Origin: Flavobacteriales bacterium
Lineage (GTDB): Bacteria; Bacteroidota; Bacteroidia; Flavobacteriales_F; PHOS-HE28
Length of the DNA: 53,263 nucleotides
Assembly: GCA_016787995.1 (NCBI GenBank)
Contig: JAEUTB010000205.1
Span: 1 to 53,263, forward strand
Reading direction: 5' to 3'
This document shows, piece after piece, positions 2,939-46,730 of this stretch; position 1 is the stretch's first letter, and each line of letters starts with the position of its first letter. The notes under the pieces were generated by a model that worked only from the letters and a program-made list of their open reading frames with translations, made no database searches and had not been told where the DNA came from. A program made the translations under genes and the position numbers.

Positions 2939-3715
2939 TCACCGAACGCCATCCAACCATTCCTTGAAGGCCTTCGCCTTCTCGCGGCTCACCATCACCT
3001 CTGCCGGGGCGGCCGGCTTCAGTTCCACCTTCAGCTTTCCGTTGAAGTGCTGGTGGACCACAGCGATGCATTTCACACAAGCGATGCATTGCCGGTTGAG
3101 GCGGTGGAAGACGCGCGGGTCCAGCTGTGCTTCGATCTCATCCAACGGCTGGTCGAGCAAGTGGCGTTTTCCGCTACAGGTGTGTAGTTCCGTGGTCCCG
3201 TCGCTGCTCAGGAAATACGCGATCTCTACCGTGGCGATGGGCAGCAATTTGGTACCCAGTTTCACCAGGAAGCGATCGCGGTAGCTCGGGCCACGGCCTT
3301 GCACGGCCTCCAGCAGGCGTTGGATATCGGGCAGGGGTGGTGTAGTGGTGGTGCGCACCAAGCCCATCAACTTGGACACACTGCGGGCCAATTCCTCCTC
3401 TTCGATTGGCTTCAGCAGGTAGTCTATGCCGTTGGTGCGGAAGGCTTCCAGCATGTACGCATCGTATGCGGTGGTGAAGATGATGGGGCAGGGGGGAGGT
3501 ACCTGCTTGTAGATCTCGAAGCTGAGCCCGTCGCTCAATTGGATATCGCTGAAGATCACGTCCGGCGCGGCGTTGGCGTTGAACCAATCGACGGCGGCTT
3601 CGATGGTGTCCACCACATCCACCACCTCCAGGTGCGGATGGTGCGTGCTCAACAGTCCGTGCAAGCGGCGGTAGGCCGGTGCTTCATCCTCGATGATCAG
3701 GGCCTTCAACTTCAT
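2939..3715 (-). CDS. LytTR-family response regulator
   Basis: A two-component response regulator of 258 residues. The N-terminal receiver domain (about 4-120) has the acidic pair E9/D10, the phospho-acceptor D57 in FSDIQLSDG, T81/T82 and K102 in LLKPIEE. The C-terminal LytTR DNA-binding domain (about 155-255) shows the family signature FHRLNRQCIA. The frame stays open upstream, but the start MKLKALIIEDE is clear: its ATG (3713-3715) shares one base with the TGA of the kinase gene (TGATG), so the two are translationally coupled. The proteins form a LytS/LytTR signalling pair. The divergent TonB-dependent receptor and the 21-bp-spaced repeats between them are the natural candidate targets. Confidence 0.93.
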   Translation of the reverse strand: MKLKALIIEDEAPAYRRLHGLLSTHHPHLEVVDVVDTIEAAVDWFNANAAPDVIFSDIQLSDGLSFEIYKQVPPPCPIIFTTAYDAYMLEAFRTNGIDYLLKPIEEEELARSVSKLMGLVRTTTTPPLPDIQRLLEAVQGRGPSYRDRFLVKLGTKLLPIATVEIAYFLSSDGTTELHTCSGKRHLLDQPLDEIEAQLDPRVFHRLNRQCIACVKCIAVVHQHFNGKLKVELKPAAPAEVMVSREKAKAFKEWLDGVR

Positions 3716-4749
3716 CACACGCGGGCTTCGTGTTCGGCGAGTTGGAGCAAGGGCAGCGCCACCAAGAAGTGTTCTCGGGTCTCGATCACGTCCACCGGTC
3801 GTTCGCTGAGGTAGGCGTAGCGCTGCCGAACGTTGCTCAGTCCGGTGCCAGTACCTTCCACGGTGCCTTGCTTGCGGTGCAGGCTGTTGCGCACCACCAA
3901 TGTTCGACCGTTCTCCACATGGATGTCCACTTGCAAGGGCGATGCCGTGCTGGCCACATTGTGTTTCAAGGCGTTCTCCAACAGCAGCTGCAGCGTGAGA
4001 GGTGCAATGAGTAATTGCCTGTGCTCCTTGGCCACGTTCACCGTGATGCGCAAGCTGTCGGCGAAGCGAACCTTCATCAGGTCGATATAGGCTTGCGTGA
4101 AATCGAGTTCGGTGCCGAGGTCCACCACTTCCTTCTCCTTGTGCTGTAGGATGTAGCGGTACACGTGGCTGAGGTTCTTGGTGAAGCGTGCGGCCTGGTC
4201 GGCGTCCTCGTGGATCAAGGCCACCAGCGTGTTGAGGCTGTTGAAGAGGAAGTGCGGGGAGACCTGGTTCTTCAGCATGTCCAGCTCGGTACGCAGTTGG
4301 CGGCTTTTGAGCGCCTCCGCTTCGATGGCCTGGTGCTTCCACATGGTGAAGAAGTAGCCCGCTTCGTACAAGGTTCCCACCACCAAGGTGGCACCAAAGC
4401 ACTTGATCAGGTTCATACGCCACTCACCCGTCTTGTAGGCACTGGGTTCCAGCCCTGCAGCATCGAGGATCGTGCAGGCCATGATATCCACCGTGATGAT
4501 GTACGTGCTGAGCGCAACGACCGTGATCATGATGCGTTGGCCGGTGCGCTCGAAGCCGGGAAAGCGCTGCCTGAAGTAGCCGATGATCATGTAGCAGCCT
4601 TGCCAAATGACCGCTGTGATCCCCAGTGTGATGGTGAAGCCCAGAACGGTCGGCATCTCCGTGTGGAACAAGAAGCTCAGAACAACGGCGAGCAATGGGA
4701 TGCCGATGATCCGGGGCCAGGGTTCCTGAAAGAGGTTGAAGCGTGCCAT
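3715..4749 (-). CDS. LytS/YehU-type sensor histidine kinase
   Basis: A membrane sensor kinase of 344 residues. Four transmembrane helices are visible (about 13-29, 36-57, 73-94 and 113-134). They are followed by a short helix rich in glutamate and lysine and by the His_kinase domain (PF06580 type), with the phospho-accepting histidine H166 in NQVSPHFLFNSLN. The C-terminal ATPase domain has the N-box (LLLENALKHN) and the G-box (EGTGTGLSNVRQRY). There is no separate periplasmic sensor domain, so the helices themselves probably sense the signal. The true start is MARFNLF at 4747-4749; the frame remains open further upstream but only antisense to the receptor gene. The stop overlaps the start of the regulator gene by one base. 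Confidence 0.93.
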   Translation of the reverse strand: MARFNLFQEPWPRIIGIPLLAVVLSFLFHTEMPTVLGFTITLGITAVIWQGCYMIIGYFRQRFPGFERTGQRIMITVVALSTYIITVDIMACTILDAAGLEPSAYKTGEWRMNLIKCFGATLVVGTLYEAGYFFTMWKHQAIEAEALKSRQLRTELDMLKNQVSPHFLFNSLNTLVALIHEDADQAARFTKNLSHVYRYILQHKEKEVVDLGTELDFTQAYIDLMKVRFADSLRITVNVAKEHRQLLIAPLTLQLLLENALKHNVASTASPLQVDIHVENGRTLVVRNSLHRKQGTVEGTGTGLSNVRQRYAYLSERPVDVIETREHFLVALPLLQLAEHEARV

Positions 4750-4804
4750 GGAATTGAACGCTCGAAAGTACCGCGATGCTACTGAAAGCGCGTTTGTGGG
4801 CGAA

Positions 4805-4854
4805 TGAAGCGTAGGGATCCTGGGTTGAAGCGTGATCCTGCCTCTATGAAGCGT
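4805..4854. promoter_or_regulatory. three 21-bp-spaced direct repeats, candidate LytTR operator
   Basis: The octamer tgaagcgt occurs three times without mismatch at 4805-4812, 4826-4833 and 4847-4854, giving a period of exactly 21 bp, two turns of B-DNA. A degenerate fourth copy, tgaaagcgc, begins at 4783. The array lies in the 256-bp divergent region, 56-105 bases upstream of the kinase ATG and about 150 upstream of the receptor ATG. LytTR-domain regulators characteristically bind paired direct repeats of about 9 bp whose starts are 21-22 bp apart, so spacing and location fit an operator for the adjacent regulator. The base sequence does not closely match the published LytTR consensus. No convincing -33/-7 promoter was assigned. 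Confidence 0.6.
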
Positions 4855-5005
4855 TGTTGGGCTTCCCCGTTGAGGAACTGTCGTTTCGACCAGCTGGTAC
4901 TGCAGTCCACCATGGTCTTCTGCGGTCTTGATGGAAGCCAAGGTGGACAAGGAGTTGAGGCCTTCGAGTTTCGCAGCCAGAACGAACACCCAAACCACCC
5001 AGACC

Positions 5006-7402
5006 ATGTCTCCCCTTCGTTTACGCTCCCTGTTCAGCGCGGCACTGTTGCTGCCGTCCCTGCTCTTCGCCCAAACGCAGGTGGTGAAGGGCACTGTGAA
5101 GGATGCCGATTCACAAATGACCCTTCCCGGTGCCACGGTAGTGCTCTTGGGCAGCGATCCCATCATGGGCGCCACCACGGACATGGACGGTCGCTTCCGG
5201 CTCGATCAGGTGCCCTTCGGTAGGCAACAGCTACAGGTAAGCTTCCTCGGCTACAAGCCCACGGTGATCCCCAATGTCCTGGTGACCGCCGGAAAGGAAG
5301 TGGTGCTTGACATCGCGCTGGTCGCTTCGGTGGAAAGCCTGAAGGAAGTGGAGATCACCTCGGAGCGGGGCAAGGACCGCACGGTGAACGAGCTGGCCAA
5401 GGTGAGCGCCCGTACGTTCAGCCTGGAGGAAGTGACGCGCTACAGCGGCGGACGCAACGACGTGGCCCGCCTCGCGACCAACTTCGCTGGTGTGAGCGCC
5501 GCCAACGATGCGCGCAACGATATTGTCGTGCGGGGCAACTCACCCACTGGGCTGCTTTGGCGCATCGACGGGTTGCCCATCGGCACCACCAACCACTTCG
5601 GCACGCTGGGCACCACGGGCGGACCGGTGAGCGCGCTCAATACCAACCTGCTTCGCACCAGTGATTTCCTCAGTGGTGCCTTCCCCGCGGAATACGGCAA
5701 CGCCAACGCCGCTGTGTTCGACGTGAAGTTCCGAAGTGGGAATACCGACGAACATGAGTTCACCGCGCAGCTGGCAGCCTTCAGTGGCGCGGAGTTCATG
5801 GCCGAAGGACCGATCAGCAGGAAGAACCAGTCGTCCTACCTGGTCAGCTACCGGTATGGTATCGCGGGTGCTGCAGCTACGGGTACCAGCGCGATCCCCT
5901 ACTTCCAAGACCTGGCCTTCAAGCTCAACTTCGGTAAGAGCAAATTGGGACGCTTCGAGCTCTTCGGCATGGGCGGTCGCAGCAACATCGACTTCATCGG
6001 TGCGGAACTGGATAGCACAGACCTGTTCGCCGACCCCACCGTGGATAGCTACTTCACCTCAGATGTAGCGCTCATCGGCCTTTCACACTTCCTCCAGCTC
6101 GATGAGAAGAGCTACCTGAGGTCCACGGTCGGTACCACCTACTTGGGTACTTCGTTCCTACAGGACAACATCATCGGTGGTGCGAGCGACCAGAACGCTG
6201 TGCGCTACCGGGCCACCGAAGCCTTGGACAATGAACAGCGCTACACGGTGAGCAGCCAGTACAACCGCAAGTTCTCGCCGCGCTTCAGTCTGCGTGCAGG
6301 GGTGCTGAACGAGGTGTACGACCTGGATGTGGACTGGACGGACCGCGACCGCCGCGCAGGAATTCCCGACGTGAACGGCGATGGCATCCCTGACTTCTTC
6401 GTACAGGTGCGTGATGTACAGGGCACCATCAACCTCTTTCAGGCTTACGCACAAGGTGAATACAAGTTCACCGACGAGCTGAGCTTCACAGCTGGATTGC
6501 ATGGGCAATACCTCGACTTCAACGAGGATGTGATGGTGGCCCCGCGCACCGCGCTTGCCTGGCAGTTCCGTCCGCGTCAACGGGTAACATTGGCTTACGG
6601 GCTGCATGGTCAGCTGGCCTCGTTACCCGTGTTGCTCTTCACCGACCCGATCACCGGCGCGAACAACCGCGACCTGGAGTTCCAGAAGGCTCACCACGTT
6701 GTGCTGGCCTACGATCATCGTTTCGAAGGCGACTGGCGGGTGAAGCTGGAGGGCTATCATCAGTGGTTGTACGACCTTGGCATCGAGGACACCACCAGCA
6801 GCTACAGCGTCGTGAACGAGGGTGCGGACTTCATCTTCAGCGAACGCGGTGGACTGCTGAGCAATGGCACGGGCCGCAACTTCGGTGTGGAACTGACGGT
6901 GGAGAAGTTCTTGAGCAAGGGCTATTACGCATTGCTCACCACCTCGGTCTTCGATTCGCGCTACACGAGCAGTGATGGCGTGGAACGCAACACCGGCTTC
7001 GCGAACGACTATGTCTTTAATGCCTTGTTCGGGAAGGAGTGGGGCATCGGCAAGGACAAGCGCAACGCCCTCACGTTCGATACCAAGTTCACCACCAGCG
7101 GCGGTCGGCCCTTCAGCCCCATTGATCTGGAGGCCACACGCGCCAACCTGGGCCGTGAGGTGTACGTGGATGATCAGGCCTACAGCAAGCGCTACGATGC
7201 CTATTTACGGTTGGATGTGAAGTTCGGTGTGCGCATCAATGGCAAGGGCGGCAAGGTGAGCCACCAGTTTTTCATGGACCTACAGAACGTGACGGATCGT
7301 GAGAACATTTTTGTTGAACGGTACAACCGCGTCACTGACCGCATCAACCCCGTTTACCAGAATGGCTTCTTCCCGGACTTCATGTACCGGGTTCAGTTCT
7401 GA
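5006..7402 (+). CDS. TonB-dependent outer-membrane receptor
   Basis: An outer-membrane receptor of 798 residues. A signal peptide (1-22, MSPLRLRSLFSAALLLPSLLFA) is followed by a carboxypeptidase-regulatory-like beta-sandwich (about 25-110, with the motif PGATVVLLGSDP). Next comes a plug domain (about 130-250, with NDIVVRGNSPTGLLWRIDG and PAEYGNANAAVFDV) and a beta-barrel ending in an aromatic residue (YRVQF). A loop with a DVNGDGIPD calcium-type motif lies in the barrel. The frame extends upstream to 4928, but the signal peptide fixes the start at 5006. It is divergent from the LytTR/LytS pair and probably controlled by it. There is no SusD partner next to it, so it is not a standard SusCD glycan system; the substrate is unknown. 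Confidence 0.93.
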   Translation: MSPLRLRSLFSAALLLPSLLFAQTQVVKGTVKDADSQMTLPGATVVLLGSDPIMGATTDMDGRFRLDQVPFGRQQLQVSFLGYKPTVIPNVLVTAGKEVVLDIALVASVESLKEVEITSERGKDRTVNELAKVSARTFSLEEVTRYSGGRNDVARLATNFAGVSAANDARNDIVVRGNSPTGLLWRIDGLPIGTTNHFGTLGTTGGPVSALNTNLLRTSDFLSGAFPAEYGNANAAVFDVKFRSGNTDEHEFTAQLAAFSGAEFMAEGPISRKNQSSYLVSYRYGIAGAAATGTSAIPYFQDLAFKLNFGKSKLGRFELFGMGGRSNIDFIGAELDSTDLFADPTVDSYFTSDVALIGLSHFLQLDEKSYLRSTVGTTYLGTSFLQDNIIGGASDQNAVRYRATEALDNEQRYTVSSQYNRKFSPRFSLRAGVLNEVYDLDVDWTDRDRRAGIPDVNGDGIPDFFVQVRDVQGTINLFQAYAQGEYKFTDELSFTAGLHGQYLDFNEDVMVAPRTALAWQFRPRQRVTLAYGLHGQLASLPVLLFTDPITGANNRDLEFQKAHHVVLAYDHRFEGDWRVKLEGYHQWLYDLGIEDTTSSYSVVNEGADFIFSERGGLLSNGTGRNFGVELTVEKFLSKGYYALLTTSVFDSRYTSSDGVERNTGFANDYVFNALFGKEWGIGKDKRNALTFDTKFTTSGGRPFSPIDLEATRANLGREVYVDDQAYSKRYDAYLRLDVKFGVRINGKGGKVSHQFFMDLQNVTDRENIFVERYNRVTDRINPVYQNGFFPDFMYRVQF

Positions 7403-28883: not shown

Positions 28884-31064
28884 TCATGAACGAACGAATC
28901 GCCGGCAGTACACCGAACCTTGACTTGTGCGGACTTGAAGGAGGTAGCATCCGGAAGGTAATGTCGCGATATCGACGATGCCATCGGCCGCTTGTGGTCG
29001 GCTTGTGAAGATGACCCTGCCGTCCGCTGTTATCACCGAAAGGCGCTCGATCGTTCCGGGGAACTGGAACCGGATCTGTTCCGAAGCGGGGATGGGTGAT
29101 ACGATGAGGTCATCGGACATCGGTGTCAGGATCGCCGTGCTGAACTCCGCCACCAGTATGCTCGGCTCGGTGATGATCGGTTCGTTGTAGTCGAAGAAGA
29201 TGTTGGCGATGTTCTCGATCGCTGTGCCTGCGGCCAAAGGCAGGCGGGGCTTCAACCTGAACTTCATCAAGCCATGGCTGCCCGGTTCGTCGCTGGCGCT
29301 ATCCGGTAGTTGGATAGCATCGAAGCGCCATTCGATCACGCGGCCGGGTTTGAATGAAACGCTGAAGGGATGGGACGCCGCTCCTTGCTCGAAGGACAGC
29401 ATGTCCAGCTCGGACGCGATGGTATCGGTGATCACCACGAACTCCGCTGGGAAGGTGCCGGTGTTCTGGAAACGGATGGTGTAGTCGATCCATTCGTCCG
29501 CGTCGATGAAGTAGAGGTCGTCGCTGGCTCTCGAGCTGGTTACCGCGCGTTTGTCATTCGGATCGAAGCTGCCTACTACGACATCGACCGATACATCAGA
29601 GTCATTGGCTGTATTCCCGTCGGGCAGGGTGTTGTTCACCGCGAGGGTGCTGGTCAACGGCGTGCCCAGTGCCGTCCCGACCGGAGTACTCACGGTCACG
29701 TAAAAATTTGCAGCCTGAAAACTGATGAGCGGAGGAAGGCTCCAGGTCAGAATGTTCCCAGAGACCGTAGGAGCAGGATCACTGGAAAGGAAGGCGAGCG
29801 TAGGATCCAAAACAAGGGTCACGGTCACAGGACCGCTCATCTGGGGTGAGTTGTTCCGAATATGGAGGTGATAGTCCGTAGCGAAGCCCGGGCGAAGCAC
29901 ACCAGCAGAAAGACTCGCGCGCAGATCCAGTGGTTGTGTGCTTCCATTGGCCAGATCGATCACGCTGGCGTTCCCGCTCACGCTGAAGGGCACAGGTTGC
30001 ACAGCAGGGCAGATCGGTACCAACGTCGGATCGGTCTGTTCAAGCGTATAGTTGCCATTGAATAGTCCGAACGCGAATCGACCAGCGCCATCCGTGAGCG
30101 CAACTTCGTTCCCTGGTTGGATGGATAGGGTACTGTAGGGTACACCCACTTCGTTAGGATCTTTCACACAATCGCCATTCAGGTCGTAGAAGCTGGTCCC
30201 TTGCACGCTGCCACACGTTGGACCCAGATCAGGAACGGTCACCCAGATGGTGTCATAGCTGCATTGGCCCGGGTCCAGTGCTTCAGCTGTGTAGCCTAAC
30301 CACCAATGGATGCCATAGTAGCCAGGCTCAAGGTTCACGAAGTCCACCGACAAGCTTGCGGGGTCAGGCTGATTCGCTTGAGGTTGAAGCACCTGATCAT
30401 CGCGGATCAAATTCACCCAGGTCAGACCCGCAGGTGCCAGGCCAGAGGACTGCACGTGAATGGCACCGATGGGCACGTTCGAACAGGATGGTTCAACACT
30501 GGTGATCGATAGCGCAGGCCAATTCACGACCTGGGGTCCGTTCGAGCCGGAAATGGTTCCTGTACACCCATGACCATCGTCCACGGGATATTCGAAGAAG
30601 GACCCCCAACCATCTGGGTAGAAGATGAACGTCGGCCCGTTCAGTGTTGAACCCCACAGTGTCGCAGGGATCCCGTTCACCGTCCAAGTGTTGTTCATAC
30701 CCGAGACATAGGGGTCTTCGAGCAAGTTCCCCGGCGCAGCGCACCAGGCAACTCCCGTGCCTATGGCGGTGAGGTCATAGGGTTCGGAAAGCACATCCAC
30801 CGTGACCGAGGCTGTTTCCGAATTGGCATCAGTGACAGTGCATGTATAGCTCCCGGCGATCAGGTTGCTACGTTGAGGATACGAAGGTCCATCCGCCCAA
30901 CTGTAGTTGAAAGGAGGAAGACCTCCGGTCGCCAACACAGTGATATGCCCATTGCCGTAAGTACAGGTCTCATGGACCAAGTTGGTCACCTGGATATCCA
31001 GCACAGCGTGTACCCGGGCATTCGCGTCGTGAACGAGAAGAAGGAGGAGTACGATGCTGCGCAT
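28884..31064 (-). CDS. T9SS-secreted SprB/DUF7619 paralogue 4
   Basis: A secreted protein of 726 residues, last of four tandem paralogues. Visible in order: signal peptide (MRSIVLLLLLVHDANA), SprB repeat (about 25-95, GGLPPFNYSWADG and LIAGSYTCTVTD), a beta-rich region, an SdrD-B-like domain (about 285-370, VQGTSFYDLNGDCVKDPNEVG), DUF7619 (about 490-640, [15 protein letters not shown] and [20 protein letters not shown]) and a T9SS type A tail (from about 650, PSILVAEFSTAILT and LIVSPIPASEQ). Such modules form adhesive surface proteins in Bacteroidota. It starts three bases after the previous paralogue, so the set is one operon. Confidence 0.85.
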   Translation of the reverse strand: MRSIVLLLLLVHDANARVHAVLDIQVTNLVHETCTYGNGHITVLATGGLPPFNYSWADGPSYPQRSNLIAGSYTCTVTDANSETASVTVDVLSEPYDLTAIGTGVAWCAAPGNLLEDPYVSGMNNTWTVNGIPATLWGSTLNGPTFIFYPDGWGSFFEYPVDDGHGCTGTISGSNGPQVVNWPALSITSVEPSCSNVPIGAIHVQSSGLAPAGLTWVNLIRDDQVLQPQANQPDPASLSVDFVNLEPGYYGIHWWLGYTAEALDPGQCSYDTIWVTVPDLGPTCGSVQGTSFYDLNGDCVKDPNEVGVPYSTLSIQPGNEVALTDGAGRFAFGLFNGNYTLEQTDPTLVPICPAVQPVPFSVSGNASVIDLANGSTQPLDLRASLSAGVLRPGFATDYHLHIRNNSPQMSGPVTVTLVLDPTLAFLSSDPAPTVSGNILTWSLPPLISFQAANFYVTVSTPVGTALGTPLTSTLAVNNTLPDGNTANDSDVSVDVVVGSFDPNDKRAVTSSRASDDLYFIDADEWIDYTIRFQNTGTFPAEFVVITDTIASELDMLSFEQGAASHPFSVSFKPGRVIEWRFDAIQLPDSASDEPGSHGLMKFRLKPRLPLAAGTAIENIANIFFDYNEPIITEPSILVAEFSTAILTPMSDDLIVSPIPASEQIRFQFPGTIERLSVITADGRVIFTSRPQAADGIVDIATLPSGCYLLQVRTSQGSVYCRRFVRS

Positions 31065-31067
31065 AGG

Positions 31068-33302
31068 TCAGTGTTTTACGAAGCGTTTACGCGCGGAGGA
31101 CCCATCTTCCAGAGTGGTGATCAGGATATACGGACCGGCTTTCAGCGCTGCGACGTCAAGGACTATCGTGTTCGAGTAGATGCTGGTCGTGAGCACATGT
31201 CTTCCATCGGCCGCGAAGATGGACACATTGGTCATCAGGACTGATGTGCTCACCTGAAGCAGATCCTGTGTAGGTACCGGGGCCATGGAAAGGTCCTGCC
31301 CTGTCAAATCATCCACCTCTGTACTGAACTCCGCCACCAGTACGCTCGGCTCGGTGATCACTGGTTCGTTGAAGTCGAAGTAGATAGCGGCCGTGTTCTC
31401 GATCACATCACCTGGCAGCAGTCCGTTCCGTGGCTTCATGCGGAAGGCCACGAAGCCTTGGCTGCCCAACAAGTCCGTTGTACTGTCCGGTAATAGGATG
31501 TCGTTGAAGGTGAAGACCAGCTCGCGCCCCTCACCGAAGGAAGGGGTGAACGCATGCGAGGCGCCGAGGATCTGGAGGCTCTCGATGTCAAGGTCCTGTT
31601 CGATGATGTCGCGGATAACCACGGTGAACGCCGTGTCGCTGCCGGTGTTCTGGAAGCGCACCACATAGTCGATCCAGAGGTCCTGGTCCAGGTAGTATTG
31701 CTCGGTGCTCTGGCTGTTGTTGGCAGTGCCCACCTTGTCATTGGGGTCGTAGCTGGCCACGATGGTCCCTTGTCCCGTATCGGTATTGTTCACCATGCTG
31801 CTCTCGTTGGAGGTGCTGGTGGCAGTAGCGGACCAGCTATGTACGAGGCCGAGGAGCTGTGGGTCCGGCGGTACTTGCACGGTGAACTGCAGCCAGCGCT
31901 GCTCAAAGGGCGCGATCACCGGGATGTTCCATTGCACCTGCCCGGGCGTCGCTACGGGATCATTCGTCCCACTGATGAAGGTGAAGAGGGGGTCGTGCGT
32001 GAACGTGACGTTCACATTCTCGCCACTTGCTCCTGTGTTATTGATCAGGCGTACCGAAAAGGTGAACGGGATGCCTACGCGTGATATCCCTTGTAGGGCG
32101 TAAACGCTCAGATCGAAGGGCGAGAGCGTGGAGTCGGCGATGTTCAGCACGGCGTCGTTGCCGCTGCTCACCGTGAACGGGATCGGACCAGCGGGAGGGC
32201 ACAACTGCACTGCATCGGGGTTCAACTGCTCCAATGCATAAGCGCCGTAGGGTAGCCCGATGGAATAGTCGCCATTACCGGACGTGATGCCGTACACCGG
32301 TCCTGGTGTGGCCTTCAGGAGTTGGTAGGGAATGCCCACCTCAAGGCCGTCCTGTAAGCAATCCACATCGGTCTCGTAGTGAACGGTGCCGCTCACGGTG
32401 GCACACGCCGTTCCAAGGTCCGGAACTGTAACGGGCACATCGATCACGCAGGGCTGTTGTGCGGAACCCAAGCTTTCGATGGAGGTGAACCGCAAGGTCC
32501 AATCGCCTGGATGCAGACCGACGATCTGAAAGGTCTCGGTTCCGGCATGGAAGGGTAGGTTCGGGATGGGGGCCACTTGTAGGCCAAGGTCATCCACAGC
32601 GCGAACGGACCAGGAGTCCTCGCTCACGAGTGGTTCGGTCACCACGGTCACTTCGCCAGCGATGGTCCCGTTGTTCGCCCCGGTGCAGCTGCCGGTCACT
32701 TCGCCCACTGCTAGGGTAGGCTCGATCAATGCGGGTACGGTGAAGGAAACCTCTCCTGAGCCGCAACTGCTGTTCACGCTGAGCTGTATCGTTTGGCCAG
32801 CGCAGGCGCCGAGCAATTCATAGCGTTGGTAGTAGCTTACGTTATCCGGCTCACCGGAGTCCCAGATGGGACTGAGCACCACGTTGAGGTTGGGCGATGT
32901 ACTGACGGTGTATCCCCCGAACTGCCTGAGCAGGTAGAGTCGTACACCACCGTTGCATTGACCGGTGCAGGGCGCAAGACCCGGGAAACCGAGGTTCTGT
33001 GTTAGTCCGCTCCCTGTGGGAGGCGCACCGCCAAAGAACACTTCACAGGTCGCCGTGCTCGATGCACCCGTGTTGTCGACGACCGTCACGGAGTAGGTGC
33101 CGGGAAAGAGACCATAGATCTCTGAGCCGGTACTTCCGTTGGACCAGTTGAACGCGTAAGGTGGATCACCGTTCAGTGCAGTTGCGATAATGGCGCCGTT
33201 GTTACCGTCGCAGTCGGTGGCATAAACCTCCAAGCGGACCTCCAGTGCACGTGTAACGGTAGTCGAGGCGACCAGTGCTACGATCAGGAACAGGTTGCGC
33301 AT
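31068..33302 (-). CDS. T9SS-secreted SprB/DUF7619 paralogue 3
   Basis: A secreted protein of 744 residues with the same plan as its neighbours: signal peptide (MRNLFLIVALVASTTVTRA), SprB repeat (PPYAFNWSNGSTGSEIYG, PGTYSVTVVDN), SdrD-B-like domain (GTVHYETDVDCLQDGLEVG), DUF7619 (SYDPNDKVGTANNSQST, FQNTGSDTAFTVVI) and T9SS tail ([24 protein letters not shown]). The N-terminal half differs most from the others, and this is the only copy whose DUF7619 reads WIDYVVRFQNTG. It is separated from the upstream copy by ten bases and from the downstream copy by three. Likely surface or released adhesin-type protein. Confidence 0.85.
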   Translation of the reverse strand: MRNLFLIVALVASTTVTRALEVRLEVYATDCDGNNGAIIATALNGDPPYAFNWSNGSTGSEIYGLFPGTYSVTVVDNTGASSTATCEVFFGGAPPTGSGLTQNLGFPGLAPCTGQCNGGVRLYLLRQFGGYTVSTSPNLNVVLSPIWDSGEPDNVSYYQRYELLGACAGQTIQLSVNSSCGSGEVSFTVPALIEPTLAVGEVTGSCTGANNGTIAGEVTVVTEPLVSEDSWSVRAVDDLGLQVAPIPNLPFHAGTETFQIVGLHPGDWTLRFTSIESLGSAQQPCVIDVPVTVPDLGTACATVSGTVHYETDVDCLQDGLEVGIPYQLLKATPGPVYGITSGNGDYSIGLPYGAYALEQLNPDAVQLCPPAGPIPFTVSSGNDAVLNIADSTLSPFDLSVYALQGISRVGIPFTFSVRLINNTGASGENVNVTFTHDPLFTFISGTNDPVATPGQVQWNIPVIAPFEQRWLQFTVQVPPDPQLLGLVHSWSATATSTSNESSMVNNTDTGQGTIVASYDPNDKVGTANNSQSTEQYYLDQDLWIDYVVRFQNTGSDTAFTVVIRDIIEQDLDIESLQILGASHAFTPSFGEGRELVFTFNDILLPDSTTDLLGSQGFVAFRMKPRNGLLPGDVIENTAAIYFDFNEPVITEPSVLVAEFSTEVDDLTGQDLSMAPVPTQDLLQVSTSVLMTNVSIFAADGRHVLTTSIYSNTIVLDVAALKAGPYILITTLEDGSSARKRFVKH

Positions 33303-33312
33303 GGTGGTGGTC

Positions 33313-35532
33313 TTATCGGGTTAAGAGCACCTTGGTCCGGAGAAGGTGTCCGTGTGTGGTATGTACTTCGGCGATATAGGCACCGGAGGCCAGGGCTGAT
33401 ACGTTCAGTATGGCTGCATCACTGTGCAACGCTTGGTGCAACACGATGCGACCGTTCATGTCGCGAAGTAGTCCATCGATCAAGGTGTGACCAGGAGCGC
33501 TAAGGCGCAGTGTTCCTTGTGAGAGGTCCGCGATGGCGATGAGCTGGTGGTCAAGCGTTCCGGATGCCGCCATGCCCGTACTGAACTCCGCCACCAGCAC
33601 GCTCGGCTCGGTGATCACTGGTGGGTTGAAGTCGAAGTAGATGTTGGCGATGTTCGACAACACTTCACCGGGAAGTAAGGGCAGGCGAGGTTTGATACGG
33701 AATGAGACGAACCCATGGCTGCGCGGCTCGTTCACATTGCTATCGGGGAGTTGGATGTCATGGAACGCCCACCTGAGTACATTCCCATCGCGAATGGATA
33801 GTGAATTCGCGTGGGAAGCAGCACCAGGTTCAAAGGTGGCCAGGTCGAGTTGTGCAGGAATGGTGTCGGTGATCACGACGTTGAAGGCTGTATCCGTACC
33901 CGTGTTCTGGAAGCGGATCGTGTAGTCGATCCATTCGTCGGTGTCGATGAGATAGCGCTCACTACTCTGTGTGCTCGTGCGTGCGGTCTTGTCGTTCGGG
34001 TCGTAGCTGCCGGTTACGACGGTGGTAAGTGCTGCGGCATTGTTATCTGGCAATACGTCCACGTTGCCGGTAGTGAGCGTGGCGTTGAAGTGCAGGTCCG
34101 TACCGAGCAGGCCGATATCAGGCGGCACCTGCAATTGTACATGCACCACGCGCTGTTGGAAGGAACTGAACGCTCCGATGTTCCAAGTGAGGGTATTGTT
34201 CGATACTGTGGGCACCGGGCTGGCGGAAATGAACGACAGCGCCGGGTCGAAGGTCAATGACAAGCTGCTCGCACCAGTGCTGGCCATTGTTAGGTTCGAT
34301 AGGAGGGCCGACAGTGCGAGCGGGAATCCCGGGCGCGCCGCTCCGCTGGCCAGGACCACTCTGGCATCCAATGGGACAAGAGCGGTATCCGCCACGTTAA
34401 GGGTCTGCAAAGCACTGCCCACAGCTAATGTGAATGGAGCCGGTGCTGAAAGGCAATGATCATCGAGCACAGCACTTTGCTGCTCCAACGTATACGCACC
34501 CAGCGGAAGGTTCACGCTATACTGCCCTCCGTTCGTGATGGTGTACACCGGACCCGGCAGGATCTCCAGCACCACACCTGTAACTCCGGGTTCGCCACCT
34601 TGCCATGTACAATTCTCATTGTTGTCCATGAACACGGTGCCGCTGATGTTGCCACATCCGTTGCCCAGGTCCGGTATCGTGAAGGGGGTGGAGAGGTTGC
34701 AACCGCTGCTTACCAGGAACGGGCTTTCACTCATGAACTGCGTCAAGAGGTAATCGCCGGGCGGAAGCGTGAACGTATTCGTGTATACCTGATCTCCCGC
34801 GCCTACCGAGTTGAGGTAATGACTATTAAGGTCCGTCAGTTTCACCTGAGTGAATTGCCCGTGCCCTTCCAAGCCGGTCTGGAAGGTGACGGTACCGTTA
34901 CTACCATTGGAGCACGCTCCTTGAATGTCCAGGATGTCAAGCTGAGGCCATTCCACCGGGTAACCGATGTACTCCTGAACGGTACCGGTGCAGCCCATAC
35001 CATCTTCGAAGGTGTATGTGACGGTCATGCCGTATTGCGTGGTCGATCCGCTCCACACATGAAAGGTGTCTATCGGCGAACCAAAGCCGTCATCGTAGAT
35101 GAACTCCTGCATGGGCTGTCCGTTCAACAGATACGGTGTCGGACCCATGAAGGTGCCTAGGAATGGATCCAACCCCGGGCCTTGCAGCACCACACCCGTG
35201 ATCCCGCTGTTGCACAAGCCTTGCGGGCCATTTTCACCAAGGTCGGTCAGTGCGTAAGGCACACCGCTAAGGATGATGTCGTCCGTGGCCTGATCACTAT
35301 TGGCATCGGTCACGATCACCGAATACGTGCCGGGGGCAACACCGGTGAGTACATCCGTTGTAGCTCCAGTATTCCACAAGAACGTATACGGTCCGACACC
35401 ACCGCTAGCCACCGCATGTATGGTGCCATTCGGATAGTTGCACGTGGGGTACGCGCTGGTGTACACATTCACGGTAATGGCGCTCACGAGAGGGCACCAT
35501 GCGACGAGGACTAGCGTCAGGAGTGTTTTCAT
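33313..35532 (-). CDS. T9SS-secreted SprB/DUF7619 paralogue 2
   Basis: A secreted protein of 739 residues: signal peptide ([18 protein letters not shown]), SprB repeat ([29 protein letters not shown]), SdrD-B-like domain ([19 protein letters not shown]), DUF7619 ([37 protein letters not shown]) and T9SS tail ([14 protein letters not shown]). Its DUF7619 and the segment after it are almost identical at the DNA level to paralogue 1, which suggests recent duplication or gene conversion. Its ATG overlaps the TGA of paralogue 1 (ATGA), so expression is coupled. Confidence 0.87.
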
Positions 35533-37805
35533 TGACCCTGTTTGATCAAGGAGCGGCGATGTGTATGTCCATCCGCCGTGTTCACAAAAAGAACGTAAGG
35601 ACCACAGGCGATGCCGGATAGGTCGATGCGGGTGCTCGTGGTGTTCATGGGGCGTTGATGCAACACCCTTCCGTCTGGTGCGGTGATCGATAGGCTTATG
35701 ATCGTCGATCCATCGGTGACGAGGTCGATGGCATCCGTGGCGGGATTGGGGAACACGGAGATGCGGTAACCTGTTGGTTCAATGGTGCGCTCCATAGTGG
35801 TCGAGAACTCAGCTACCAGCACGCTCGGCTCGGTGATCACCGGTGGGTTGAAGTCGAAGTAGATGTTGGCGATGTTGGTGATCTGGTCGCCTGGAAGCAG
35901 AGGCAGGTTCGGCTTTATCCGGAACGAGACGAAACCATGACTGAGCGGTTCGTTGATCGTGCTGTCCGGCAGGAGGATGTTGGCGAAGATGAACTTCAAC
36001 ACGCCTTGCTCCTGGAGTTGACGCGTGTGCGGATGTGAGGCAGCGCCCCATTCGATGGAACCGGGATCCAACGTGGTGGGAAGCGTATCCGTGATCACCA
36101 CGTTGAAGGCTGTATCCGTGCCCGTGTTCTGGAATCGGATCGTGTAGTCGATCCACTCGTCGGCATCGAGTATCCATGCTTCCGTGTTGCCTGTGCTGGT
36201 GGTGGCGCGTTTGTCGTTCGGGTCGAAGCTGCCCGTCACCGATTGTGCGGAAACGGCCGTGTTATTGCTCAGGTCACCATCGGTGTTCGCGCTGACGAGT
36301 TGGGCCGTGGTGGTGAGCGTGCTGCCGATCAGTTGCACATCGGGTGGCACTTGGGTGCGTATGCTGACGTTCCGTTCCTGGAAGACCTGGTTCATCACCA
36401 ACTGCGGAGTGGTCCACGTGAGCACATTTCCGATCACGCTGGTCGGGGTGGGATCAGCGGCGATGAGGCCGAGTGTGGGATCCAAGGTCACCGTCAGTGT
36501 AACCGTTCCAGTGGAAGAAGGGGTGAGGTTCTCCAGTGATAGGCCATAGTGGAGTTCGAACCCAGGGCGCGCCGGTCCATTCGCGATGTCGAGATCAAGG
36601 TCCAGCGGTTGGCCACCGGCGCAGCCCACGTTGAAGGTTTGCGAACCGGCAGCGAGGGTAACGTCACCCGCACAACTCTGCTCGAACACGGGGTGCTGTT
36701 CGGTCACGGTGTAGTCGCCGAAGTTCAGGCCGATGGAATAGTACCCGTTAGCGTCGGTGGTCACGTAGTAAGGCCCCGGAGTGATTTCCACGATGGTGCC
36801 GGGTATGCGGTTCTCGCCGCTACCCATGACGCAGTTCGCATCATCATCGATGAAGACGCGACCGTTCAGTCGGCCGCAATCGGTCCCCAGTGATGGTACG
36901 GTGACCATGAAGGAATCGGCACATGCATAACCTTCGAGTGCACCAGTGTATACGTTGAGCAGGTCGTTGGTGCTGATCAACCAATAGTCGCCCGGAAGCA
37001 AGTTGTTCACGGTGAACGTGGCCCCGGTGCTCCAATTCTCGTGTACCCTCGACCAGATGAGTTCTGAGCACTGGTCCGTGATAGCGGCGGGTCTAAGCAT
37101 CGTCTTGTGATCGTAGGCAGGCTGCGGGGGAACGGTGTAGGTGATGGATCCTGTGGCGGTGGAAGCACAGCTCGGCACCACCTCCACCACTTGGGGGTGC
37201 GGAAGTTCTTGGGTCGCTGGTCCAACCACCACCTGCACTTGGCCAGGACAACCATCGCCGTCCCAGAAGTCCACCAAATAGTATCCCGGTTCCGCTCCAT
37301 CGAATTGCAGGATGTGGTGCATCTCCCCGGGAGTGACTTGGCAGGGGGTGGACTGCAGCTCTCCCAAGAGCATGGGGTGCGAGAACGTATAGGGTTGTGG
37401 TCCATATTGGCCCTCTGGTGGTGGGAACGGCTCCAACGCGGTGACCCCGGTGAAGACCGTTGCCATGCCAGGGTCTTCGGGACAATGGGAAAGCGTGTAG
37501 AAAGAAGCTGCACCGGCACCGTTGTAGTCGGTCTCCAGAATGGTGAAATCCACTGTCACCTCCTCGGCTTGCGAGTCGGTCACGGATACGCTGTAGGTTC
37601 CCGGAAAGAGCCCCATGGCCCAGGAGTCGGTGGTGCCGTTGCTCCAAGCGATGGTGTATGGCGGCACACCCCCATCGATCCAAACAGCCGCTTGCCCCGA
37701 AGGGCGGCCGCAGAACGAATGGCGCATCACATCCACGGTGGCCGTCAGGGCCCACGCCTGCGCTGTAAGAAGGAGGCTAAGGAGTAGGGTAAAAGGTCGC
37801 TTCAT
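35529..37805 (-). CDS. T9SS-secreted SprB/DUF7619 paralogue 1
   Basis: The first of the four tandem paralogues, 758 residues: signal peptide ([19 protein letters not shown]), SprB repeat ([30 protein letters not shown]), SdrD-B-like domain ([20 protein letters not shown]), DUF7619 ([37 protein letters not shown]) and T9SS tail ([29 protein letters not shown]). This copy has the most canonical sorting tail (FPNPATD). The frame opens 27 bases further up, but the signal peptide sets the start at 37803-37805. About 190 bases separate it from the delta-60 repeat gene upstream; that gap shows no gene and may hold the operon promoter. Confidence 0.87.
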
Positions 37806-37994
37806 GGGTGGTGGTTCGGTCCATGCGCACACCCGGGTCGGGAGAGGTTCGCTTGTGGGTTAGACGTACCATCCGGAAATGGATGCTTGAAGGTACGAAG
37901 CGACATCCAGAACCCTCCGTTGATGGCACCAACACATCGGAAGGTCCGGCCACCAAAGCTGAACCGACTTGCCTTCGTCGGCTGCGCAGTGCGC

Positions 37995-46043: not shown

Positions 46044-46463
46044 GTAAGGTGCCTTCCCCGCCACAGAGGCTGTATTCCTGACGGTGCAAGCTGCATACTT
46101 GGCGGTGCAAGTTGCATTCCTCGCCAAGCAAGGTGCCTTCCTCGCCACGCAAGCTGCATTCCTTATCGTGCAAGCTGCATTCCTTGCCATGCAAGTTGCA
46201 TTCCTTGCCGTGCAAGTTGCATTCCTTGCCATGCAACTTCTATTCCTTGCCGTGCAACTTGCATTTCTTGCCATGCAACTTGCATTCCTTGCCGCGCAAG
46301 CTGCATTCCTTGCCGTGCAAAGTGTATTCCTGACGCTGCAAGATGCCTTCCTTGCCGTGTAAGGTTTATTCCTGACGTTGCAAGCTGCCTTCCTTGGCGC
46401 GCAAGGTGTATTCCTCGACGTGCCAGTTGCCTACCTCACGGTGCAAGTTGCCTTCCTGGCCGT
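46044..46463. repeat. twenty in-phase 21-bp tandem repeats
   Basis: Twenty consecutive units of exactly 21 bp without any insertion or deletion. The consensus is gcaagytgcmttccttgccgt with variation mainly at positions 5, 6, 9, 10, 16, 18 and 20, and near-constant bases at 1, 3, 4, 7, 8, 11, 13, 14, 15 and 17. Because 21 is a multiple of three, long stretches stay open in all frames and give 7-residue repeats such as CIPCRAS (plus) and HGKECNL (minus). The variable positions fall in every codon phase, so the array does not look protein-coding. Each unit can form a small hairpin (gcaag ... cttgc). It lies about 270 bases upstream of the DJ-1/PfpI gene. Confidence 0.85.
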
Positions 46464-46730
46464 TCAAAGTGCCCAGCTTCTGAACTCACTGATGAACAAT
46501 CTCGAACTGAGAAGAGGCTGCTAACCCCTCAACGAGAACGCTCGGTGAAGACGGTCACCAGAGCGCTACGCATCAGCCGCGCTGGTCATGCGGAACATAC
46601 GCCGCAAATGTGGGGCGGACAGGGCAGGGCTTCCACACCGAACAGGGCTGCCGACTGATCCCAAGCCCGCAACAGCTTGGCATCAAGCGCGATCGATGAA
46701 CTGTGGCCCGCGATCCGTACTGCAGTGACC

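Follow-up and report, generated by a model that had tools for sequence, protein, structure and literature searches.

The intergenic region between a LytS-LytTR gene pair and a divergently transcribed gene for a TonB-dependent receptor (TBDR) appears to carry twin operators of the cognate LytTR regulator, one for each promoter. Through these operators the regulator, we infer, would bind upstream of both promoters and activate them, giving positive autoregulation together with control of the receptor gene; we put the probability of this reading at about 0.83. The locus was found in a Flavobacteriales contig of 53,263 nucleotides, and the whole of this stretch is referred to here as the window. 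There is good confidence in the narrower prediction that the two-component regulator encoded next to the repeats at 4805-4854 docks on them. The features of the locus are listed in Table 1.

Table 1. Genes, boxes and predicted promoter elements of the divergent locus, in window coordinates.
Feature	Coordinates	Strand	Remarks
LytTR response regulator (receiver + LytTR domain)	2942..3715	-	Pfam Response_reg 3.2e-12, LytTR 1.7e-17
LytS-type membrane histidine kinase	3718..4749	-	Pfam His_kinase 1.9e-25; overlaps/abuts regulator gene
lytS-promoter -7 element TACTTTCG, predicted	4763..4770	-	13 nt before LytS ATG; fits TAnnTTTG (PMC9723704)
lytS-array box 1 (promoter-proximal) ACGCTTCATT	4803..4812	-	contains TGAAGCGT on the + strand; ~32-33 bp from -7 element; conserved
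lytS-array box 2 ACGCTTCAAC	4824..4833	-	21 bp from box 1; conserved
lytS-array box 3 ACGCTTCATA	4845..4854	-	21 bp from box 2; conserved
TBDR-array box 3 (promoter-distal) TCGTTTCGAC, degenerate	4881..4890	+	offset 75 from TBDR -7 element
TBDR-array box 2 GCAGTCCACC, best match of the array	4902..4911	+	offset 54
TBDR-array box 1 CGGTCTTGAT, very degenerate	4923..4932	+	offset 33; better in relatives
Receptor-promoter -7 element GAGTTTCG, predicted	4966..4973	+	chosen by rule; 32 nt before ATG
TonB-dependent receptor-like outer-membrane protein (TBDR)	5006..7402	+	Pfam CarboxypepD_reg 4.9e-18, Plug 9.7e-06

Genes of the locus

The regulator, predicted to bind both arrays, scored 63.8 bits for LytTR (cut-off 22.6) and 47 bits for Response_reg (cut-off 30.2). 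The lytS gene abuts the regulator gene, and the His_kinase domain of its product (89.3 bits) is the sole Pfam match in 344 aa, as fits a LytS/LytTR two-component system. The LytS orthologue in the genus member G018 is 80% identical, and QVSPHFLFNSLN (with the predicted phosphoacceptor H166) and LLLENALKHN are invariant between the two proteins. The 5TM-LYT/GAF sensor domain that marks LytS kinases of the BtsSR/YpdAB type was not found in the window kinase. Nor does the pair belong to the LytTR regulatory systems (LRS), whose membrane partner is a non-kinase inhibitor, because the partner here is a histidine kinase; the working at the promoter is similar. The receptor combines a carboxypeptidase-regulatory-like domain with a plug domain. 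Its TIGR04056 score of 51.8 bits against an NCBI cut-off of 368.25 places it outside SusC/RagA; it is a member of another TBDR subfamily.

The lytS-side array

Three perfect 8-bp direct repeats with a 21-bp period had been described in the initial annotation, and they are borne out: TGAAGCGT occurs at 4805-4812, 4826-4833, and 4847-4854, with start-to-start distances of 21 and 21 bp. The pattern TGAAGCGT-N13-TGAAGCGT with up to three mismatches has five matches in the window where 0.51 are expected, and 0 of 100 shuffles reach five. Other exact 8-mer triples at an equal period (10-40) occur in the window only near 46 kb, within a tandem array of 18 copies that is unrelated, and six Markov-simulated windows contained none. 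A genome search for further pairs at this spacing, proposed earlier, found two exact TGAAGCGT pairs, both within the window array, in the 3.3 Mb available (74% complete). Among 28 genomic near-matches that were inspected, nearly all lie within long stop-free frames and without a correctly placed -7 element; this narrow pattern did not reveal a wider regulon in the 3.3-Mb genome.

Two parts of the earlier description have to be given up. The degenerate fourth copy at 4783 was dropped: its distance to 4805 is 22 bp instead of 21 bp, it sits where the predicted lytS promoter has its -33 region, and relatives show nothing equivalent. Read in register, at 4784, the sequence is GAAAGCGC (a 5/8 match). 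The repeats had also been said to fill the divergent region; they cover just part of its 256 bp (4750-5005). One more perfect TGAAGCGT, at 4737, falls within the beginning of the lytS coding sequence; at a distance of 68 bp it does not fit the phase of the array. The two spacers of the array have GATCCTG in common with a three-base shift (4815-4840), a feature that is absent in relatives.

Read on the minus strand, which is the lytS strand, the boxes become ACGCTTCAT and point at lytS. LytTR operators are defined as direct repeats of 9-11 bp separated by 11-13 bp (PMC4847170), and the array has this format, with three conserved 9-bp boxes and 12-bp gaps. The flavobacterial sigma-A -7 element TAnnTTTG spans -12 to -5 (PMC9723704). 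Relative to a predicted lytS start at ~4758, the boxes lie at about -45 to -54, -66 to -75, and -87 to -96, so that the array sits directly upstream of the -35/-33 region. In the lytS promoters of all divergent loci (6/6), TAYTTTYG is found 33-35 bp past the proximal 9-bp box. The orientation and placement of the 4803-4854 array for the lytS promoter by themselves argue for autoregulation.

Conservation in the genus

Close orthologues of the regulator (69-81% identity; the next sequence has 46%) are present in 4 of 45 genus genomes, namely the window genome, G066, G062, and G018, and the divergent gene arrangement is the same in 4/4 loci. A Flavobacteriales MAG locus, L065, matches G066 over the region. 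With close orthologues in just 4 of 45 genus species, the module seems to have been transferred horizontally or lost more than once.

The comparison of orthologous regions suggested in the initial annotation came out in its favour. The 21-bp-spaced boxes are kept in the three other genus species (G018/L061, L065/G066, and G062/L073) while the spacers diverge, and they are also kept in two other families (L103 and L104, the latter with one poor lytS-side box). On the lytS strand the boxes read ACGCTTCAT/ACGCTTCAA/ACGCTTCAT in the window, ACGCCTCAC/ACGCTTCGC/ATGCTTCAC in G018, CCGCTTCAT/ACGCTTCAG/CTGTTCCAT in L065, and TCGTTCCAA/CCGTTTCAT/CTGTTCCAT in G062, always at exactly 21 bp. Pairwise identity on the lytS side of the four genus loci is 68% for boxes, 82% for core positions, and 38% for spacers. 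With the boxes kept in orthologues, the candidate LytTR operator is supported.

When the boxes of the window and of G018 were combined into one triple pattern (YGARGCRT at 21 bp), it matched without mismatch only at these two loci in the 45 genus genomes, and the single other match, with one mismatch, is low-complexity repeat DNA. No array was found in G009/G058 (L068), whose LytTRs are 45% identical. Distant LytS matches in G047 and G054 (L069, L070) were set aside as loci that are not orthologous, and L010 was rejected because its three boxes, visible by eye, lie inside a gene.

Conservation across the Bacteroidia

In 395 Bacteroidia genomes, the best-matching receptor homologues (~45-64% identity) mostly adjoin LytS and LytTR genes. 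Outside the genus, the divergent arrangement was found at L103 and L104. At L105, L108-L116, L118, L119, L127, and L129 the genes are collinear (receptor-lytS-lytTR), and the operon promoter has two boxes. An EM motif search for two boxes 21 bp apart, run on the 14 collinear upstream regions alone and with the window left out, recovered two copies of ACA[AG][CT]TCAT(C) at this distance; in most cases TAnnTTTG follows after exactly 33 bp. Even without a motif model, lag 21 was the top repeat distance in these regions. Across the collinear loci the box pair stands 33-34 bp upstream of TAnnTTTG, and at the lytS promoter the window boxes match this geometry.

A composite pattern (two boxes, then a 35-bp gap after the 8-mers and TANNNTTG) was run against the 395 class genomes. 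Seven of the eight exact matches lie directly upstream of TBDR-LytS-LytTR loci, although the loci are phylogenetically related and such counts are not independent events. Composite matches at genes outside the module make up 6/15 in the class, which suggests that the box may be common to other LytTR regulators rather than exclusive to the module. These outside matches, at G403:C55 (L158), G324 (L155), G416 (L156, L161), G410 (L154), and G095 (L157), include the upstream regions of glyoxalase-like and glycosyltransferase-like ORFs and may reflect wider LytTR regulons in Bacteroidia. The idea of a Bacteroidota-specific site survives in part: there is a Bacteroidia consensus, ACRNYTCAT, with a fixed spacing to TAnnTTTG, but the bases resemble the published YpdB/BrsR sites.

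The receptor-side array

How would the regulator reach the receptor gene? Both receptor expression and autoregulation had been ascribed to the same repeats. The autoregulatory half of that claim is supported by the 4805-4854 array; the receptor link comes instead from a weaker array at 4881-4932, in which GCAGTCCAC is a good box, TCGTTTCGA fair, and CGGTCTTGA poor. The predicted -7 element of the window receptor is atypical; in their receptor promoters, the other three genus members have NANTTTCG at about the corresponding position. Counted from a predicted start near 4978, the array lies at about -46 to -55 and so on upstream.

The receptor promoters of the divergent loci were scored with the motif from the collinear loci, the -7 element having been chosen by rule beforehand. 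The best three mean offsets among 160 were 54, 33, and 75, and offset 54 was also the top-scoring one in the window receptor promoter and in the set mean. Among ~700 cells, the combination of offset 33 and period 21 was best (-8.0 against a mean of -51.5, sd 9.8). For the lytS promoters the best cell was (32, 21), or (33, 21) when 1-bp jitter was allowed, as the spacing varies by one or two bases. Ten TBDRs without an adjacent LytTR showed nothing comparable at offset 33 and period 21. Because the scoring picks this combination in both promoters and the control TBDRs lack it, both divergent promoters appear to carry an array. One intended control, the TBDR of L128, was discarded: it carries the motif, but LytS-LytTR lies 2.7 kb away in the wider sequence. 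At L143 (G334:C6:266000-285000) the receptor is ~2.7 kb from LytS-LytTR and the two-box promoter is still upstream of the receptor.

Assignment of the regulator

The window genome has genes for about a dozen LytTR-like response regulators. The TBDR-linked LytTRs of the divergent and collinear loci group together with 100/100 support, separate from the other 24 genus paralogues; the group also takes in two genus sequences that are not linked to a TBDR. The FhRhHRS contact motif reads FHRLNRQ in the window regulator, keeping the F, the R, the hydrophobic, and the basic positions and replacing H by N and S by Q. Nearly all module and genus LytTRs inspected, paralogues included, have this FxRxNR[QK] variant, so the motif alone does not explain specificity. 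The regulator is assigned to the arrays by linkage and co-occurrence, which point to the neighbouring gene.

Proposed mechanism and alternatives

In the proposed mechanism, LytS would phosphorylate the receiver domain of the regulator at Asp57; the phosphorylation motifs of kinase and receiver are present by sequence. The LytTR domains would then dock side by side on the 9-bp boxes, two helical turns (21 bp) apart. From an array that ends ~45 bp upstream of the predicted lytS start and upstream of -33, they could recruit RNA polymerase, giving positive autoregulation of lytS-lytTR. On the + strand, the weaker three-box array at 4881-4932 has the same geometry and would place the divergent receptor gene under this regulator too. 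Most other Bacteroidia have the genes in collinear order, and there a single array of two boxes ahead of the receptor could serve all three. The outcome would be positive feedback, with the levels of sensor, regulator, and receptor rising jointly.

Activation of both promoters is favoured because the arrays lie upstream of the -33 region, as they do for activating LytTR regulators, and its preference over repression comes from position. AgrA activates from sites near -60 (PMC4227749), and LRS repeats are found ~10 bp upstream of the -35 element (PMC6193735). Repression of one or both divergent promoters from the same operators is improbable. It has a precedent in the LytTR regulator CoxC, a repressor whose operator has three repeats and overlaps the -35 box (PMC11347149), but the proximal box here stays clear of the -33 region, ending ~45 bp before the predicted start, and a fixed 33-35 bp to the -7 element is kept in all loci, as in activating LytTR sites. 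More serious, though still unlikely, is that the array serves lytS only, the receptor-side array of the window being a decayed relic and the receptor escaping the regulator in the host species. Just GCAGTCCAC among the three receptor-side boxes matches well; against this, the boxes are recognisable in other divergent loci, where the leading offsets form the 21-bp series given above.

Several direct-repeat binders exist besides LytTR proteins, and one of them might bind the 21-bp repeats, since linkage is the only evidence for the identity of the regulator. We regard this as very unlikely: the sites track TBDR-LytS-LytTR loci, including L128 with its pair at a distance, and a 9-bp box with a 12-bp gap is a LytTR hallmark (PMC4847170, PMC6193735). 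That the repeats have no regulatory role and arose by chance or mutational tandem duplication, or are iterons, has a negligible chance. The GATCCTG offset between the spacers is what an old duplication might leave, but relatives keep the boxes and not the spacers, triples were absent from the simulations, the spacing to the -7 element is fixed, and the neighbouring genes give no sign of a replication gene. Tandem-repeat, iteron, and low-complexity readings were discarded on the conservation pattern and the promoter spacing. The preferred reading is twin activating LytTR operators.

Other features of the window

Positions 46046-46467 hold a tandem array of a 21-bp unit in ~18 copies (consensus GTGCAAGTTGCATTCCTTGCC) with an 84-bp higher-order period. 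It is open in two opposite frames, without a convincing gene, and its sequence is unrelated to the operator repeats. On the minus strand, 28884-37832 holds four neighbouring ORFs that are paralogues of one another (726-767 aa). Each has an SprB-like repeat, DUF11, and DUF7619, and most have a Por_Secre_tail; they are probably a tandem family of type IX-secreted surface proteins.

Significance and comparison with known systems

LytTR operators and LytTR autoregulation are already known. We lean slightly towards the reading that Bacteroidia have a class-wide module, so far undescribed, in which one TBDR subfamily would be dedicated to a LytS-LytTR pair and controlled through a promoter of constant layout (9-bp boxes at 21 bp, with 33-35 bp to TAnnTTTG). 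In some lineages this layout would have been rearranged into twin arrays of three boxes at divergent promoters, so that a single feedback loop joins the synthesis of receptor and sensor. The open-access literature searched, limited in scope, yielded neither an experimentally defined LytTR site nor a LytTR-controlled TonB-dependent receptor in Bacteroidota, and no description of the TBDR-LytS-LytTR module or its site was found in it. If the reading is true, the class-wide consensus ACRNYTCAT, with its 21-bp period and 33-35 bp from TAnnTTTG, would be usable for mapping LytTR regulons, and a receptor subfamily is named whose ligand may be what LytS reports on. Control of outer-membrane receptors is usually discussed in terms of sigma/anti-sigma and hybrid two-component systems, and the module would add a further regulatory route.

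Published LytTR operators agree with the arrays in site geometry (PMC6193735, PMC4847170, PMC4227749, PMC11347149). Within the class, the nearest precedent is a promoter of Bacteroides LRS-like LytTR operons (Btheta7330_RS19915/19920 and the B. ovatus counterpart), predicted in silico (PMC6193735, Table 3). From the end of its direct repeats, TCCGGTATTCA-11 bp-ACCGGAAATCA, to TATCTTTG there are 11+4+19 = 34 bp, the distance that also separates repeat and -7 element in the window, and autoregulation is predicted there too (PMC6193735). Unlike the window, these operons pair a transmembrane LytTR protein with an NfeD-like partner and have no histidine kinase; the period is 22, and there is one operon with no receptor gene and no divergent second array (PMC6193735). 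HdrRM and BrsRM of Streptococcus mutans likewise have 9-bp repeats 12 bp apart (for BrsR, ACCACTTAT-12-ACCGCTTAT) just upstream of their own operon promoters, and positive autoregulation has been shown for them; they differ in having a membrane inhibitor in place of the LytS kinase, two boxes, and streptococcal bacteriocin and competence targets (PMC6193735).

In E. coli, YpdA/YpdB and BtsS/BtsR each join a LytS kinase to a LytTR regulator that controls a transporter gene (PMC4847170, PMC5552118). The site bound by YpdB, a direct repeat of GGCATTTCAT, comes close to ACxxTTCAT (PMC4847170), and the minus-strand window box resembles both this site and that of BrsR (PMC6193735). Their targets, in contrast, are inner-membrane transporters, their kinase sensor domains differ by Pfam, and the parts of the reports consulted do not describe autoregulation through the same repeat (PMC4847170, PMC5552118). 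AgrA of S. aureus binds direct-repeat sites at agr P2/P3, two promoters in one intergenic region, one of which drives its own operon (PMC4227749); it serves quorum sensing, and its contact motif is FFRCHNS. RcoM and CoxC are one-component CO sensors, and CoxC represses, unlike the activation proposed here; they share with the window three direct repeats about two helical turns apart, and CoxC needs all three (PMC11347149).
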